From the NCBI GenBank assembly GCA_004124475.1, contig SCKK01000026.1:1-46881 (forward strand): a DNA stretch of 46,881 nt. Reading direction: 5' to 3'. Source of the DNA: Fidelibacterota bacterium. GTDB taxonomy: Bacteria; Fidelibacterota; Marinisomatia; Marinisomatales; SCKK01. The translations under genes were made by a program, and so were the position numbers. This document shows positions 23,954-40,307 of this stretch, one piece after another; the stretch's first letter is position 1, and each line of letters opens with the position of its first letter. The notes beneath the pieces were generated by a model. That model did no database searches. It was given only the letters and a program-made list of their open reading frames with translations, and was not told the origin of the DNA.

Positions 23954-24994
23954 ATGCCTCGATACTCTATTTTAGCAGATAAAAAATTCGACTATATCCT
24001 GTCCAAAACAGGGAATGCCATTCTTCGATACCGTCCGGAGGAAGCTGTCTGTGTTATCGATTCCGTTACGGCAGGGAAGACGGCTCAAGAAGTTCTCGGA
24101 TACGGTGGAAATGTGCCTGTTGTGGATTCATTGGAGGCGTCTTTAAAGTATTCTCCCGACACCCTTCTGATTGCCATCGCACCCCCTGGAGGCCGGCTTC
24201 CGGATTCATTGCGGGATATTATATGCTGCTCCATGTCTGAGGGGCTGAATATTATTTCGGGTCTTCACACATTTCTATCCGACGATGAAGAATTCTCATG
24301 TCTGGCAAAAAAAAATCAAGTTACTATTACAGATTTACGACGACCTCCCAGTCCATTACCGTTTTCAAAAGGATCATGGCGGTGGCGGAAGACTCCGGTT
24401 TTATTAACGGTTGGATCAGATTGTGACACAGGAAAAATGACAACTGCATGGGAGATTAAACAATCGTTAGAAGAGAAGGGGAAAAAAGTTGCATTTATCG
24501 GGACAGGTCAGACAGGAATACTCCTCGGGGGACGAGGTGTAGCAGTAGATGCTGTGGTAAGTGACTTTGTAGCAGGGTGCATCGAATATGAAATCGACAA
24601 GGTCGGAAATGAGTTTGATCTGATTATCGTTGAGGGACAGGGAAGTCTTAATCACATGGCATATTCCGGTGTAACACTTGGACTTATTCATGGAACTATG
24701 CCTGATATGTTAATTATGTGCCATGAACCTGATAGAGAATTGGATACCATCGACCATCCTATACCGTCGCTTGGTGAAATCTTGGATATTCACCTAAAAT
24801 TGCTTGCTCCCTTCAAAAAAACCGTCTATGCAGGAATCAGCCTTCTGACAGGTCAAGTGAATGCTCAAGAAGCTCAACTTTCGGTTGAGAGAATTGAAAA
24901 AAACGAAGGAATTCCAACCACAGATGTTATAAGGTTTGGGGGAGATAAAATTGTAAGCCAGGTTTTCTCGTATTTAAAGAGTCACGAGATATAA
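23954..24994 (+). CDS. DUF1611 (DgcN-like) family protein
   Basis: This 346-residue protein has a C-terminal P-loop domain, with VGSDCDTGKMTTAWEI as its Walker A and IIVEGQGSL as its acidic strand, behind an N-terminal Rossmann-like domain. The DUF1611 family includes DgcN, linked to D-glutamate metabolism. It is followed by a dipeptide epimerase gene 42 bases on, a known conserved neighbour pair. An amino-acid or peptidoglycan-recycling function is inferred from family and neighbour. Confidence 0.88.
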   Translation: MPRYSILADKKFDYILSKTGNAILRYRPEEAVCVIDSVTAGKTAQEVLGYGGNVPVVDSLEASLKYSPDTLLIAIAPPGGRLPDSLRDIICCSMSEGLNIISGLHTFLSDDEEFSCLAKKNQVTITDLRRPPSPLPFSKGSWRWRKTPVLLTVGSDCDTGKMTTAWEIKQSLEEKGKKVAFIGTGQTGILLGGRGVAVDAVVSDFVAGCIEYEIDKVGNEFDLIIVEGQGSLNHMAYSGVTLGLIHGTMPDMLIMCHEPDRELDTIDHPIPSLGEILDIHLKLLAPFKKTVYAGISLLTGQVNAQEAQLSVERIEKNEGIPTTDVIRFGGDKIVSQVFSYLKSHEI

Positions 24995-25036
24995 GCACAC
25001 TGGACTTTTAATAAGTACATTCATTACATTCGATCT

Positions 25037-26065
25037 ATGGATTTCCAATATTCCACATATAGGATAAAGCTACGTCATCCTTTCACAATTTCACGTAGTT
25101 CGAAGAATTTTTATGACATTATTTTTGTCTATTTAACTGATAAAGGTGTTACAGGAGTTGGAGAAGCCACACCTTCAGACCGGTACAACGAGAAATTTAA
25201 TCAAATTTTGCGCACACTTCAGTCCATATCTATGGACGACATTGATGATTCTTACCCATTAGAGAAGCAATTAGATAGAATATTTGAAAGATGTCAAGGA
25301 TACCGCTCCCTTATGGCGGCATTTGATATGGCACTTCACGACTTGCGGGGAAAACAAGATTCTACACCATTATATGATTACTTTGGAACCAGTCCAGATC
25401 AGACACCTGTGACTTCATTTACGATTGGTATCGACAAATTAGAAGTAATTCAAGAAAAGGTCGAAGAAGCCGCCGAATTTCCCATTCTGAAAATTAAGTT
25501 GGGGACTCAGGATGACAAAGCCATCATTAATACGATTCGAAACGTTACGGATAAGAAAATTCGTGTAGATGCAAACGAGGGGTGGAATTTGGATGATGCT
25601 TTAAGAATGTGTGAATGGTTGGAAAAGAAAAACGTGGAATTTGTGGAACAACCATTACCTGCCAGTAATATAGAAGACTCGGAAAAGTTAAAAGAACAAT
25701 CTCCCTTAAAACTCATCGCTGATGAAAATTGTATGGATTCAACCGATATTCCTAAGATCAGAAATGCTTTTGATGGGATAAATATAAAATTGATGAAATG
25801 CGGGGGTCTTTTTGAGGCGTTAAATATGATCAGATTGGCAAGGGAGAATGATCTCGAGATCATGCTTGGATGCATGGTTGAATCTTCTGTAGCAATTACT
25901 GCAGCCGCTCACCTGTCGCCACTCGTTGATTATGCTGATTTGGATGGTAATGTATTAATTAAAAATGATCCATATATAGGCGTGAGACTAAAAGAAGGGA
26001 AATTGTTATTACCAATAGAACCGGGACTCGGAGTACAAATTCGAACAAAAAATAAGGAGTTATAG
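25037..26065 (+). CDS. Dipeptide epimerase (L-Ala-D/L-Glu epimerase type), enolase superfamily
   Basis: This 342-residue member of the muconate-lactonizing/enolase superfamily has ILKIKLG, giving the KxK acid-base pair. Metal ligands lie in IRVDANEGW (Asp), EFVEQPL (Glu) and LIADENC (Asp), and the opposite catalytic Lys is in INIKLMKCGG. Members epimerise L-Ala-D-Glu from murein to L-Ala-L-Glu. Pairing with a DUF1611 gene supports cell-wall peptide recycling. Exact dipeptide specificity cannot be read. Confidence 0.92.
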   Translation: MDFQYSTYRIKLRHPFTISRSSKNFYDIIFVYLTDKGVTGVGEATPSDRYNEKFNQILRTLQSISMDDIDDSYPLEKQLDRIFERCQGYRSLMAAFDMALHDLRGKQDSTPLYDYFGTSPDQTPVTSFTIGIDKLEVIQEKVEEAAEFPILKIKLGTQDDKAIINTIRNVTDKKIRVDANEGWNLDDALRMCEWLEKKNVEFVEQPLPASNIEDSEKLKEQSPLKLIADENCMDSTDIPKIRNAFDGINIKLMKCGGLFEALNMIRLARENDLEIMLGCMVESSVAITAAAHLSPLVDYADLDGNVLIKNDPYIGVRLKEGKLLLPIEPGLGVQIRTKNKEL

Positions 26066-26074
26066 AGTTTATCA

Positions 26075-26491
26075 ATGAAAATTTTAGGAATAGAACACAT
26101 CGCCATTGCAACAAAAGACTTGGAACAAGATTCTTCATTCTGGAGTGATATTTTGGGCATTAACTATTTAGGAAAGGAGATTGTGGAAAATGAGGGGGTG
26201 GTAACGGATATATACAACACAGATCAGGGTAAAGTGGAATTGTTAGCAGAATATGGAGAAGAATCACCTATCACAAAATTCTTAGAAAAACGTGGTTCAG
26301 GGCTTCATCATGTCTGTTTAGAAGTTGAGGATATACACAAAGCAGTAAAAGAATTAAAATCGAAGGGCATACAACTCATCTCAGATAAACCAACTATAGG
26401 GGCTGAAGGTTATCAAATTGTATTTATTCATCCAAAAAGTGCAGGAGGGGTTCTGGTTGAATTATGTCAGAAACAGAAACAAAATAAGTGA
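26075..26491 (+). CDS. mce: Methylmalonyl-CoA epimerase
   Basis: This 138-residue vicinal-oxygen-chelate protein has metal ligands in IEHIAIAT (His) and GSGLHHVCLEV (His), plus the C-terminal Glu in GVLVELCQ. It interconverts (R)- and (S)-methylmalonyl-CoA in propionate or branched-chain metabolism. Methylmalonyl-CoA mutase is not in the window. The gene lies nine bases after the epimerase gene, and its stop overlaps the uvrC start (TGATG). Confidence 0.93.
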   Translation: MKILGIEHIAIATKDLEQDSSFWSDILGINYLGKEIVENEGVVTDIYNTDQGKVELLAEYGEESPITKFLEKRGSGLHHVCLEVEDIHKAVKELKSKGIQLISDKPTIGAEGYQIVFIHPKSAGGVLVELCQKQKQNK

Positions 26492-28362
26492 TGATAACTA
26501 TTTCTAAGAATCTTACAACCAAACTCAAGGGTATACCTGATTTACCAGGCGTTTACCTATTTTTAGATAAAGCGGGAAAGATCCTTTATATAGGGAAATC
26601 AAAAAATTTGAGGAATCGTGTAAAGTCCTATTTCCATAAAAGCAGTCAACAGTCTGCCAAAATTATTTCTTTAATGACAAAGGTTACTGACTTTGATTGG
26701 ATTGTTTCAGAATCCGAAGTAGAAGCACTACTAACAGAAGCCAACCTGATAAAAGAACACAAGCCTAAATACAATGTTGATCTAAAGGATGATAAGTCAT
26801 TTCCGTATATTCAAATCACAAAGGAACCTTACCCACAAGTTCTGTTGACCAGAAATGTCACAAAAGATGGATCAAAATATTTTGGTCCGTACACAGATAT
26901 CAAATCACTCAGAGAAACACTTAAAGTTATACACAAGGTGTTCCCAGTAAGAAGTTGCAGTTACTATTTAGATGAGAAAAAAATAACTAATAATGTTATT
27001 TCAATTTGCCTCGATTACCACATCAATAAATGTGAAGGTCCCTGCGAAGGACGGATATCAGAAGATAATTACAACCTGATGATTCGTGGGATTATTCGGT
27101 TTCTACATGGCAGAACCAGTCAAGTCATTAAAGATCTCAAAAAGAAAATGATTCAGGCTTCTCAAGAAATGCGGTATGAGGAGGCTACTGCATTTCGAGA
27201 TCAAATGAAAGCAGTAGAGAATTTTACTCGACGGCAGAGAAAAGTAACTGCATCTTTTGAAGATAAAGATATCATTGCGTTTGCCATCGATGGCAATAAT
27301 TCGTGTGTGGTGATATTGAGACTTAGAAATGGGAAATTAATCGGTCGTGAAAAAGTATTTTTATCAGGAGCAGATATTGAAAATATGGGATCAACAATAT
27401 CAGAATTCATACAACAATTTTATCTTGAAACCGATTTTATTCCCGATGAAATAATCGTGCAGGAAGACCCTGATCCAATAGAACCACTCATTTTATGGCT
27501 GAGTGAGAAAAGAAACAAAAAAGTCAGGATCAATGTTCCTCAAAAAGGGGAAAAAGTCAGACTGTTGAGGATAAGTCAAAAAAATGCAGAATTGCTGTTG
27601 GGGGAATACCTGCGAAAGAAAGTGAGAATGAGAGAGTTAATCCCTGCATCGGTTGAAAGACTCAAATCAGATTTGGGATTGTCTGTTCCGCCAAGAAGAA
27701 TTGAAGCATTTGATATTTCCAACATACAGGGGTCAAATCCGGTAGGTTCGATGGTCTGTTTTGTTGATGGAAAACCTAAAAAAAGAGGGTATAGAAAGTT
27801 TAAGATAAAATCAGTTAAAGGCATTGATGATTTTGCCATGATGCGTGAAGTCGTATACCGAAGATATAATCGATTAAAAAGTGAAAATGCGCAGTTCCCT
27901 GATTTAATTCTTGTCGATGGGGGCAAAGGTCAGTTGGGAATGGGCGTATCGGCATTACAATCATTGGGATTATCCTATATCCCTGTGGTAGGTCTTGCCA
28001 AAAGACTTGAGGAGGTATTTCTACAGGGATTTCCTGAACCACAATCTATTCCCAAAGGATCGCCAGGGCTTCTACTTCTCCGTCGGATCAGAGACGAAGC
28101 TCACAGGTTTGCAATTTCATTTCACCGAAACATGCGAAGCAAGGAAATGACTTCATCAATTTTTATTGAAATTGACGGTGTGGGACCTGTAATACATAGA
28201 AAGTTGTTTGATAGATATAAAACTATCGACGAAATTGCAAGCTGTTTACCACCAATTTTATCAATCCAAGTACATATTAATGAAAAGCTAGCAAAGAAAA
28301 TTATTATTAAGGCAAAAGAATACCAGTCTTCCATCAAACCGGCAAGTCGAATGGGTGTTTAA
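26491..28362 (+). CDS. uvrC: UvrABC system protein C
   Basis: This 623-residue nucleotide-excision-repair nuclease has an N-terminal GIY-YIG domain (GVYLFLDKAGKILYIGKSKN) for the 3' cut. A UVR motif (IKDLKKKMIQASQEMRYEEA) contacts UvrB. The RNase-H-like domain, with IEAFDISNIQG and LILVDGGKGQL, makes the 5' cut, and the C-terminus has helix-hairpin-helix sequence (DGVGPVIHRKLFDRY). All parts are present. ATG 26491 is chosen over GTG 26488. No obvious SOS box lies before the run. Confidence 0.97.
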   Translation: MITISKNLTTKLKGIPDLPGVYLFLDKAGKILYIGKSKNLRNRVKSYFHKSSQQSAKIISLMTKVTDFDWIVSESEVEALLTEANLIKEHKPKYNVDLKDDKSFPYIQITKEPYPQVLLTRNVTKDGSKYFGPYTDIKSLRETLKVIHKVFPVRSCSYYLDEKKITNNVISICLDYHINKCEGPCEGRISEDNYNLMIRGIIRFLHGRTSQVIKDLKKKMIQASQEMRYEEATAFRDQMKAVENFTRRQRKVTASFEDKDIIAFAIDGNNSCVVILRLRNGKLIGREKVFLSGADIENMGSTISEFIQQFYLETDFIPDEIIVQEDPDPIEPLILWLSEKRNKKVRINVPQKGEKVRLLRISQKNAELLLGEYLRKKVRMRELIPASVERLKSDLGLSVPPRRIEAFDISNIQGSNPVGSMVCFVDGKPKKRGYRKFKIKSVKGIDDFAMMREVVYRRYNRLKSENAQFPDLILVDGGKGQLGMGVSALQSLGLSYIPVVGLAKRLEEVFLQGFPEPQSIPKGSPGLLLLRRIRDEAHRFAISFHRNMRSKEMTSSIFIEIDGVGPVIHRKLFDRYKTIDEIASCLPPILSIQVHINEKLAKKIIIKAKEYQSSIKPASRMGV

Positions 28363-28431: not shown

Positions 28432-30519
28432 ATGATACAGCAGAAGACAAAAAAAGACCTCCTGTTTACCGGTGACCAGAAACATCAAATCGTACGTGAA
28501 CTTGGGAGAAATCCTAATAAGTTGGAATGGGTGATATTGTCAAGCTATTGGAATCATAAGTTTGTTAGAGACATTACAAAACGGCTCATTGATAATCTTC
28601 CTAAAGTGAGTCATGCGGGTAATAAATCTACTTCTTCTGAGGAATCCCCATTTTATTATATCTCTGGAAATATCAGTGTTGGATTTGAATTATTCACTTG
28701 TTCGGGATTTAATAAAGAAGAAGTTAATCAAAAAGTCTTTGAGAGAATTTATCATCTGAATAACAAATTATCTTCGAAGGGAGCTGTGTTAGCGGGAGCC
28801 TATTGCTGGATGGGTCTCGGTAAAAAAAATAAGGTGAAAAATCGCTTAATTAAACAGCTGGTTACAAACATACAAAATCTTTTTAAAGGGTTGAAATTAA
28901 AGAAATCTAAGTTTGATTTTTCATATGATCGGATATTTAATGACCAGTCGATTATATCGATGATGACAATTGGTATTAGACAGGATGGAGAAGATAAAAA
29001 TGAATCAAATTGGCCTGAGGGGAATCTCGTATTTTTAATTTCTCCGAATGGTGGATTTACTAATTGGGAAAATAACTTTAACATGGGGATCTTAGCTAGG
29101 TGTATGGTAGACAGGCAATATGTTGTGAATTTTGCAACGGTTGATGAATCGGGATTGATTGAGACTGTAATTCATGCAGCTTTAAAAGGGAAGACGGGAA
29201 TTTCTGTAGACACCGATCAAATTCCATCTTTTGACCGTAGAAAAAGAATTGAACATATTGTCTCTTTACAACATTCCGGGGGATTGCTTGTAATTGTTAG
29301 TAAGGGATTTCAGAAAGAGATAAAAATCCTCTGTAAGGACAACGGTGTATATTGCCATGAAATTGGTTATACAGATGGCAGTGAGAATTTCCATCTTGTT
29401 AACAACGAAAAGAAGCTTGTCTCTATACCGTTATCCTTATTTGAGTCGAAAATGGAGCATCAACCAGTAAATTTTGCTGCAAAAAAGAGAGATGTAGTAC
29501 AAAATTTGGATTTATCATCGTTGCTGATTCCAAAAGATTTGAGCTCGGTATTGCTGGAAATGTTGAAGTCTGAGAATGTTGTAAAACAGGAGAATGACTT
29601 TATATCAGTGAATGATATCACAGAGTTAATTTCTGGAAGTCATTCATTAGGGGAATTGATTGTAGTAATAGAGAATCATACCAGGTATATGAAACTTGAT
29701 CCGAGAGTAGGCACTTCAAGCACTATTTTAGGAGCAATAAGGCGAATAGTGTCACGAGGTGCTAACCCAATTGGGATAATTTTTACCATGATGATTCAAG
29801 ATTTATCCGATAAAAATAATTATTATTTATTCAAGGAATCTATGTATGGAGTAACAGATGTTTGTAATTCTATGGGTATCCCATATTTCAATAGTGATAT
29901 AAGTTTCAGTAATTCCTCATTTAACAGTTTTGTATTTACAGGTGGAGCAGTAGGGTTATTAGAAAATTCAGAATTTGATATTACATCAGATTTTAAATCG
30001 GTGGGTGATTTTATTTTGATGCTTGGAAGTCACAGAGGGGAATTAGGGGGAACGGAATATTTAGAGCAAGTTCATAGTCGAATTGACGGAACACCACCTA
30101 CTATTGATTTTGCGGGGGAAAAGAGAGTTATTGAGATCCTTTCTGTAGCCAATCGGGGTAGACTAATAAAATCAGCTTCACCGGTGGCTGCAGGTGGTCT
30201 GGCAGTAGTTCTAGGAAAATCTGTCATCCGTTCGGACCGGGAATTAGGTGTAAGAGTTCATATGAGCAGTAAAATCAGGGATGATGAACTTCTTTTTGGC
30301 GAAACGCAGGGACTTTTTATCATTTCTGTTGATGAAGACGCATTAATCGAAATTGAGAGACTCTGTATGAGATTCGGAGTCTCATGTACTGCAATTGGTC
30401 GGGTAACCGATTCAGGTTTATTTACCATTAACAAATTGATTTCACTAGAAGTGAAAACGATGAAAAAAGCTTATCTTTCTTCAAAAAAGAAAATCTTTGG
30501 ATCTTTACCCTGGGTTTAG
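28432..30519 (+). CDS. Full-length PurL-like (FGAM synthase II fold) paralogue lacking signature motifs
   Basis: The 695 residues follow the PurL large-subunit plan of two AIRS-like halves. LGRNPNKLEWVILSSYWNHK near residue 18 parallels the PurL N-terminus. Later segments such as YLFKESMYGVTDVCNSMGIP, ELGGTEYLEQVHSRI, PVAAGGLAVVLGK and DELLFGETQGLFIISVD fall in PurL order. The canonical EHCSYKSS and ESHNHPS nucleotide-site motifs are missing; the corresponding stretches read NHKFVRDI and no HNHPS-like run exists. It is therefore unlikely to be the working purine enzyme, yet it is uninterrupted, suggesting a kept but changed function. It stands between uvrC and a tRNA gene. Confidence 0.75.
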   Translation: MIQQKTKKDLLFTGDQKHQIVRELGRNPNKLEWVILSSYWNHKFVRDITKRLIDNLPKVSHAGNKSTSSEESPFYYISGNISVGFELFTCSGFNKEEVNQKVFERIYHLNNKLSSKGAVLAGAYCWMGLGKKNKVKNRLIKQLVTNIQNLFKGLKLKKSKFDFSYDRIFNDQSIISMMTIGIRQDGEDKNESNWPEGNLVFLISPNGGFTNWENNFNMGILARCMVDRQYVVNFATVDESGLIETVIHAALKGKTGISVDTDQIPSFDRRKRIEHIVSLQHSGGLLVIVSKGFQKEIKILCKDNGVYCHEIGYTDGSENFHLVNNEKKLVSIPLSLFESKMEHQPVNFAAKKRDVVQNLDLSSLLIPKDLSSVLLEMLKSENVVKQENDFISVNDITELISGSHSLGELIVVIENHTRYMKLDPRVGTSSTILGAIRRIVSRGANPIGIIFTMMIQDLSDKNNYYLFKESMYGVTDVCNSMGIPYFNSDISFSNSSFNSFVFTGGAVGLLENSEFDITSDFKSVGDFILMLGSHRGELGGTEYLEQVHSRIDGTPPTIDFAGEKRVIEILSVANRGRLIKSASPVAAGGLAVVLGKSVIRSDRELGVRVHMSSKIRDDELLFGETQGLFIISVDEDALIEIERLCMRFGVSCTAIGRVTDSGLFTINKLISLEVKTMKKAYLSSKKKIFGSLPWV

Positions 30520-38714: not shown

Positions 38715-40307
38715 ATGAAAAAACAAATCCTCGGAATATTAGCGCTCATATTATTATCTTACTCTGTCTATGCACAGGAAGGCGGATCACAAACGACTCA
38801 AGGGAGTGTAGGAGCGGTGACCATTGATGGAAAGTTATGGAATCAGATCGCATTGAGACCCGTCATCCCATTCGGAAAATTCGGTGTTGCCCTTGATCTG
38901 GTCGTCTACATCGATGGTGAAGGGAATATTCATAAAGATGAGTGGGACTTTTCTTCGCTTGGGGCAACAAAGAACACGATCATAGATAAAATCTACTATA
39001 TCAGGTATGGCTTACCTGGTGATCCTTTATATTTCAGGGTTGGCGCACTCGATTATGTATCTTTGGGATATGGTATTCTTGTGTCCGGTTATTCCAATAC
39101 CATACAATATCCTCAGGTGAGAAAAGTGGGACTTTATTTGAGGCTGAAAAAGTGGAACCATTCGTTTGAGGGATTTATAAACGATTTCAAAGAAAATATA
39201 GGACTATTTGGGATGAGTGTGAGTCGTCCACTTCCTGGTGGATTCAAGGGAGGAATAACAGTAGTGACCGACCGGAATCAATATCTCGGTTTAAAAGATA
39301 GAGATGATGATGGTGTCCCTGATGTGTTGGATGATTTCCCTCGAAATGCCGGTATTTGGGCTGATACGGATGGGGATGGAATTGAAGACAGTGTCGACCC
39401 GGATGCTGATGGAGATAATATTATAGACGGAGGTCAAGATCGCGATGGAGATGGAATTATAGATGGAACTGAAACCGTAGATCTGGAAGGGGATGGAAAC
39501 CTAGGGATACCCTATGATGACGAAATTGTCTTAAAAAAAGACTCACGACTTAAAAATGGGGATCCCATTGCAGGGGTGGCTTTCGATGTGAGTTATCCTT
39601 TGCTGAATCAAAAAAAACTGAGAGTGGATATTTATGTTCAAGCCGCTCAACTAATCGGCAAAACTGTGAATCCTGAAACAGATGAAAAAATTGCAACGGG
39701 TATGGGGCTTGTTCCGTTGGGAGTCGCATCCAAATTCGGACCGATGAGATTAAGCCTTGAGTACAGAATCATTCCAAGAGAGGGGAGATTTGATTTTGGT
39801 TACTGGGATCGATCCTATGATATGGAACGAGCAATCTTTCGTGAGGATGTTGATGGAAATATTCAGGTGAAGACCAAAGAAAGCCTCCTGGGTAGATACG
39901 GAAAACAGAAAGGTTTCTACGGAACGTTTGGAGTGGATTTAGGCTCTCTACTTGTATTGAAAACAGAATATCAAAATCTGAGAGGGAAAATTTGGAATGA
40001 CGAAATCGACAAATTCGAAGACCAGCAAAATCGTAGTTTTAAGACCAGTTTAGCGCTTAGAAAAAAGGTTTTCCGGATTAAATATGCTACTTTCTTTTAT
40101 CAACAGAGAAATGTCCAAAATCCTTTTGAATTTGAATTTACAGAAAGTACTGTGATGGGATATGGGGTTGGGTATGAGATATCTGCCGGCATTACATTAA
40201 ATTATATTTTTCGTCGAACTTTTCGTGATTTGAACGGGGATGGGGACGTAAAAGACGATGGAGAAACCATTAATATCACAACTGTCGAAACAACATTCAA
40301 CCTATGA
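38715..40307 (+). CDS. Outer-membrane beta-barrel protein with calcium-binding DxDxDG repeats
   Basis: A signal peptide (ILGILALILLSYSVYAQ) opens this 530-residue protein. Many alternating amphipathic strands ending in aromatic residues suggest a barrel. Residues about 194-265 form thrombospondin-type-3-like Ca-binding repeats, including DRDDDGVPD, DTDGDGIED and DRDGDGIID, set within the barrel rather than at an end. Ligand and role are unknown. The stop overlaps the alaS start, so an envelope protein and a tRNA synthetase share a transcript. The DNA repeats in this stretch are in frame and intact. Confidence 0.8.
   Translation: MKKQILGILALILLSYSVYAQEGGSQTTQGSVGAVTIDGKLWNQIALRPVIPFGKFGVALDLVVYIDGEGNIHKDEWDFSSLGATKNTIIDKIYYIRYGLPGDPLYFRVGALDYVSLGYGILVSGYSNTIQYPQVRKVGLYLRLKKWNHSFEGFINDFKENIGLFGMSVSRPLPGGFKGGITVVTDRNQYLGLKDRDDDGVPDVLDDFPRNAGIWADTDGDGIEDSVDPDADGDNIIDGGQDRDGDGIIDGTETVDLEGDGNLGIPYDDEIVLKKDSRLKNGDPIAGVAFDVSYPLLNQKKLRVDIYVQAAQLIGKTVNPETDEKIATGMGLVPLGVASKFGPMRLSLEYRIIPREGRFDFGYWDRSYDMERAIFREDVDGNIQVKTKESLLGRYGKQKGFYGTFGVDLGSLLVLKTEYQNLRGKIWNDEIDKFEDQQNRSFKTSLALRKKVFRIKYATFFYQQRNVQNPFEFEFTESTVMGYGVGYEISAGITLNYIFRRTFRDLNGDGDVKDDGETINITTVETTFNL

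Follow-up and report, generated by a model that had tools for sequence, protein, structure and literature searches.

Gene order and phylogeny showed that an uninterrupted frame of 695 codons plus stop at 28432-30519 (+) is the native purL orthologue of its phylum as placed by synteny and tree, and alignment showed that it has lost nearly all catalytic and ligand residues of PurL. The frame lies in the window, which is the whole analysed stretch of 46,881 nucleotides, and the label PurL2 is used for this gene and for other catalytically dead native PurL homologues. On balance, it is fairly probable that the native purL was displaced by a foreign purL, was freed from catalysis and was kept as a non-catalytic pseudoenzyme; the functional half of this explanation is what we infer. 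The case would be a natural one of a core metabolic enzyme swapped for a foreign version, with the original protein retained in a different role. Active native ancestors, intermediates and a minimal single-domain form are all extant in one phylum, and this makes it testable whether housekeeping enzymes have hidden non-catalytic duties.

Sequence features and predicted structure of PurL2

The genome that holds the window is that of a marine bacterium of Fidelibacterota (SAR406) and has a size of 3.15 Mb in 77 contigs, with 95% completeness. Among named relatives, a Candidatus Neomarinimicrobiota MAG comes closest, at 91% identity. Against the NCBIfam PurL profile NF002290 the window PurL2 scored 187 bits (E 4e-55; cut-off 648 bits), and against TIGR01736 it scored 163 bits (cut-off 525.75 bits), both below the cut-off. 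Pfam detected AIRS_C (E 4.6e-21) and AIRS (E 1.7e-6), with two AIRS_C stretches and one AIRS. The full-length AF2 model, for which an alignment of 35 homologues was the input, had a mean pLDDT of 82.8 and a pTM of 0.87, and its top PDB match on Foldseek was 3viu, the T. thermophilus PurL (TM 0.83, E 8.9e-46). As modelled, PurL2 of the window is a complete PurL fold with two AIRS/AIRS-C halves. The frame, profiles, fold and 3viu match bore out the earlier sequence-only reading of an intact PurL look-alike spanning both halves.

The sequence likeness to PurL sits mostly in residues 405-690; what marks the first half is chiefly its fold, along with the LGRxPxxxE helix near the N-terminus. All features in this paragraph are on the + strand. 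The N-terminal helical segment (residues 15-53, 28474..28590) carries the PurL signature LGRxPxxxE in the alignment. It is followed by a degenerate first AIRS half (residues 74-333, 28651..29430), from which ESHNHPS and the Mg and substrate residues are missing according to the AF2 model and alignment. The second half contains an AIRS N-terminal domain (residues 409-509, 29656..29958) that keeps R437 (Pfam, alignment) and an AIRS_C domain (residues 524-663, 30001..30420; Pfam), which showed the strongest constraint in dN/dS and is the sole part left in genus g27. Comparison of homologues gave the family motifs GSHRGEL (residues 532-538, 30025..30045) and LFGE (residues 621-624, 30292..30303), together with ERLCM (residues 642-646, 30355..30369) and IGRV (residues 655-658, 30394..30405), the last being common to phylum-native PurL.

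Loss of catalytic and ligand residues

The alignment contained 98 sequences: 26 motif-bearing PurLs of the phylum, working PurLs of two foreign types (6 and 9 sequences), 39 same-order homologues and 12 homologues from other lineages, with outgroups. Nineteen positions, which we take from UniProt/HAMAP annotation to be the catalytic, Mg, ATP and substrate positions of PurL, were conserved in the 26 phylum-native PurLs with one Asn/Asp variant. Only one of the 19 residues (Ser491) is left in the window PurL2, and at any of these columns the native residue was found in no more than about a third of the 39 PurL2 homologues. Lys43 occupies the position of the active-site His of EHCSYK, and the ESHNHPS columns read F-T-C-S-G. 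A large proportion (168 of 198) of the columns near-invariant in native and outgroup PurLs are lost in PurL2, while the 30 retained are largely structural Gly and Pro. The absence of PurL motifs noticed in the window sequence was thus confirmed, and it extends to the homologues in relatives.

The two halves of native PurL align to each other (hhalign probability 99.8), and the pseudo-symmetric second-site metal ligands (equivalents of D466, N490, D639 and E174) are also gone in PurL2. ATP-dependent chemistry by PurL2 appears unlikely from the alignment because metal ligands are lost at both the catalytic and the pseudo-symmetric sites. The same double loss weakened the earlier suggestion of an enzyme for a different amidine, and the idea of an auxiliary ADP site kept as a sensor was rejected on the loss of the pseudo-symmetric ligands.

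The PurM/PurL superfamily is chemically versatile and includes PurM, ThiL, SelD and HypE. This versatility, the intact fold and the retention of R437, E563, E624 and G588-589 in the second-half site are consistent with PurL2 as an ATP-dependent ligase or kinase acting on another substrate. Such new chemistry is nevertheless quite unlikely: besides the missing Mg and ATP ligands at both sites, the PurL2 homologues showed no invariant cluster of acidic residues that had newly arisen, and the single-domain form in g27 is unable to build a PurM-type two-domain site. PurM, ThiL, SelD, HypE and the sll0787 family have AIRS and AIRS-C domains in common with PurL2. They differ in having a single AIRS pair with a functional dimeric ATP site; in PurL2 there are two such pairs, and none of the metal ligands is recognisable.

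C645 and M646 were invariant in all PurL2 of the window's order (36/36) and were not so in native PurL. Relative to the phylum natives, the derived residues of PurL2 are C645, M646, G627 and a few others. Most of the motifs once considered new inventions of PurL2 (E635, R643, IGRV) proved common to phylum-native PurL after natives were added, and that view was dropped.

Gene order and phylogenetic analysis

The ancestral gene order identified for native purL was mce-uvrC-purL-FAH-suhB-agcS. In the window, PurL2 is preceded by methylmalonyl-CoA epimerase (mce, 26075..26491, +; profile and synteny) and by uvrC (26488..28362, +; Pfam/NCBIfam profiles and synteny), the ancestral upstream neighbour of phylum-native purL. 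Within the same order, PurL2 was located 3' of uvrC or of dnaX-ybaB-recR-pgsA-pgpA-cinA-thpR-recA-recX, and was followed by FAH and/or convergent suhB-agcS. The sole full-length PurL found at these loci in sister orders has intact EHCSYK and ESHNH, and it directly adjoins suhB-agcS in several genomes (L117-L121). Motif-bearing PurL of other classes was found in the order mce-uvrC-x-purL, purL-FAH or purL-...-suhB-agcS (L165-L170). The mce-uvrC pair before the window PurL2 matches L169 and L170, and suhB-agcS lies 3' in relatives; since the order is that of motif-bearing PurL in other classes, the window's mce-uvrC-PurL2 is assigned as the native purL locus. The uvrC neighbourhood pointed out in the sequence-only reading is present in relatives and ancestral to the phylum, but many relatives have PurL2 3' of recX instead, and a neighbourhood that is ancestral therefore gives no functional hint for PurL2. 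A DNA-repair role, considered from the recX and uvrC neighbours, was dropped because the locus is the ancestral purL position.

A maximum likelihood tree was generated from the conserved half only (77 rows, 284 columns, LG+C20+F+G4). PurL2 of the window's order, whose rows are long branches, came out as a single clade (99/95), and this clade fell inside that of the phylum-native PurLs (100/99). Sequences of the working purL type formed a separate clade (100/99) outside even the Enterococcus, Sinorhizobium and Nonomuraea PurLs, and from its placement in the tree it appears to be of foreign type. Forcing PurL2 and the working purL into one clade was rejected (AU p = 0.0001). This test and the synteny ruled out an origin of PurL2 by duplication of the working gene. 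The window gene had earlier been called a paralogue of the genome's purL, a description that gives way to that of a native orthologue beside a foreign working gene.

Working purL and purine gene cluster

The true PurL that the earlier reading presumed was found: a profile search of the genome detected a canonical purL at C77:78348-80591 (672.6 bits, above the cut-off). It is clustered with the adenylosuccinate synthetase gene, purM, purQ, purC, purE, purB and purF. Free-standing PurS was absent from all 61 genomes of the window's order, and 17 of the 18 sister-order genomes had it. From this distribution of PurS, together with the tree and the placement of the loci, the entire PurL-PurQ-PurS system appears to have been replaced in the window's order.

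The working PurQ (L072, G000:C77, 5950-7203) is 418 aa long; its C-terminus is extended by about 190 residues, which gave a very weak match to the short PurS-like family PRK06423 (E 0.033). A PurQ-PurS fusion in the window's order is possible on this match, and PurS may be missing because the working PurQ ends in this weakly PurS-like C-terminus. In the sister-order genome G148 (L150, L151) the native purL is intact and a foreign purL adjoining its own purS is present as well, possibly an intermediate state preceding displacement.

Distribution, selection and loss of PurL2

PurL2 was present in 56 of 130 same-order genomes. The ORFs read were 547-709 aa long and were open except for contig-end fragments and a frameshift in G088; about 40 were intact, with a mutual identity of 15-45% across about a dozen families. 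The dN/dS of the window PurL2 against its sister G001 was 0.215 (C-half 0.163, N-half 0.241), and other PurL2 pairs with estimable dS gave 0.12-0.27. The neighbouring genes uvrC and dnaX gave 0.19 and 0.15, respectively. A 4-nt overlap of PurL2 with recX, uvrC or FAH was often seen. As judged from the nearly all intact ORFs and the dN/dS of about 0.12-0.27, PurL2 is under purifying selection and is not decaying, in agreement with what had been argued from the uninterrupted window frame.

PurL2 is dispensable, given its clean absence in several lineages and the frameshift in G088. The junctions recX-FAH, recX-ACS and recX-agcS were found where it is cleanly missing, and in one f15 genome recA adjoins suhB and PurL2 is gone. 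In G088 (L209, 1280-2921) the frameshift splits PurL2 into ORFs of 298 and 267 aa; the stretch contains 19 N, and an assembly error is possible.

Between uvrC and suhB, genomes of genus g27 contained only an ORF of 164 aa (G052) or 183 aa (G060, with many ambiguous bases in the sequence) that matches the C-terminal domain of PurL2. The G052 ORF begins 2 nt past the uvrC frame. With an alignment guided by PurL2 rows, the mini-protein was predicted to have an AIRS-C fold (pLDDT 84.7), and its top matches were PurL. Its dN/dS was 0.39 on 135 codons, a weak constraint. The domain that survives is the most constrained one of full-length PurL2, and g27 retains a full working purL beside it.

The repeated clean losses, the G088 frameshift, the g27 truncation and the high divergence of the N-half would suit a slowly eroding, functionless relic left over from a recent displacement. 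This is very unlikely in view of the many intact ORFs at such low identity, the dN/dS near that of the neighbouring housekeeping genes, the newly invariant C645 and M646, and the close spacing of PurL2 to FAH and to recX or uvrC, with its common overlap.

PurL2 in a genome lacking purL and in other lineages

In G008 (96% complete, 10 contigs), purL-purM-purQ and neighbouring genes are deleted inside a gapless contig (L133, G008:C4, 13363-17300). The genome also has a truncated purF, and these losses suggest purine auxotrophy; purH and PurL2 are intact. A broader statement that PurL2 occurs without PurL in many genomes was withdrawn, as a clean internal deletion was seen in G008 alone. G026 and G057 contained small purH fragments, suggesting that their assemblies just lack the pur contig, and partial purL was present in G047 and G028.

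Two lineages outside the class, f23 and f31, have motif-less PurL2 in the order uvrC-PurL2-FAH or PurL2-FAH, and the working PurL in both is a foreign one. The working PurL of f31 is of the same foreign type as in the window's order. That of f23 (L182-L191) is about 1000 aa long and Bacteroidota-like, and groups with Saprospira, the nearest named row; it has an N-terminal PurS-like region (PRK05974, E 5e-4). None of the native-PurL genomes examined had PurL2 alongside native PurL. PurL2 of f23 clusters with native PurL of f22 (87/98), which suggests a separate loss of catalysis in f23, while a single origin of PurL2 across the phylum was not rejected (AU p = 0.147). A tentative and rather doubtful extension is that native PurL has a second, non-catalytic job in its AIRS-C domain, for which it would have been kept at each foreign takeover (window's order, f23, f31), independently shedding catalysis, with one genus having reduced it to a single domain.

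PurL2 could also belong to the working FGAM synthase complex as a subunit or regulator, tuning flux by binding to the foreign PurL, to PurQ or to intermediates of the purine pathway. The PurL-like fold and the presence of the foreign purL in most PurL2-bearing genomes fit such a role, and viral FGARAT pseudoenzymes that recruit the host enzyme (PMC6213852) give a precedent. It is unlikely, however, given the intact PurL2 of G008 (a single case), the coexistence of PurL2 in f23 with an unrelated PurL, and the single domain left in g27 beside a full working purL. The earlier proposal of a partner regulating the true PurL was weakened accordingly by the G008 deletion and by the occurrence of PurL2 beside two unrelated PurL types.

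Proposed function and comparison with known systems

Under the favoured explanation of displacement and retention, the foreign purL, located in a complete purine cluster elsewhere, would have taken the enzymatic role from the native purL. The native protein, released from FGAM synthesis, would then have lost both Mg-nucleotide sites, and PurL2 would probably act as a binding or scaffold protein. The AIRS-C domain at its C-terminus is the putative working surface, with GSHRGEL, R437, E624, E635, R643-xCM and IGRV, while the fast-evolving N-terminal half may be dispensable.

PurL2 shares its origin, fold, segment order and ancestral locus with the small PurL subunit of FGAM synthase (TIGR01736/PRK01213; 3viu, 1vk3, 3d54), but differs in lacking the catalytic His, ESHNHPS and the Mg, ATP and substrate residues, in lying outside the pur cluster and in the missing free-standing PurS of its order. 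Annotation of PurL2 genes as PurL by similarity would be wrong, and the working gene is not the one found at the ancestral locus.

Searches of an open-access library turned up no bacterial case that has been described, and in particular no PurL pseudoenzyme from this phylum. The closest precedent, by analogy, would be the herpesvirus FGARAT pseudoenzymes. The ORF75 pseudoenzymes of gammaherpesviruses lack the PFAS catalytic triad and recruit the cellular enzyme (PMC6213852). The nearest viral structures to PurL2 on Foldseek were vFGARAT/ORF75, and the window PurL2 scored 54 bits against TIGR01739 (vFGARAT), below the cut-off of 716 bits. These tegument proteins are PurL-derived, lack the enzyme activity and serve another function in cells with a working PurL/PFAS, as is proposed for PurL2. 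They are, however, viral, carry a glutaminase-like domain within their about 1300 aa and recruit host PFAS, whereas PurL2 is bacterial and chromosomal, apparently kept in place after displacement, and shrinking.

Other features of the window

Between recX and alaS, an ORF of 530 aa (38715-40307) gave no Pfam match. DgcN-like and DgcA-like genes (23954-26065; N-acetyl-D-Glu metabolism by NCBIfam, under the cut-off) were found, and the pair is kept beside mce-uvrC-PurL2 in several relatives. The left end (249-1931) contained a GmrSD-type restriction endonuclease with both Pfam domains.
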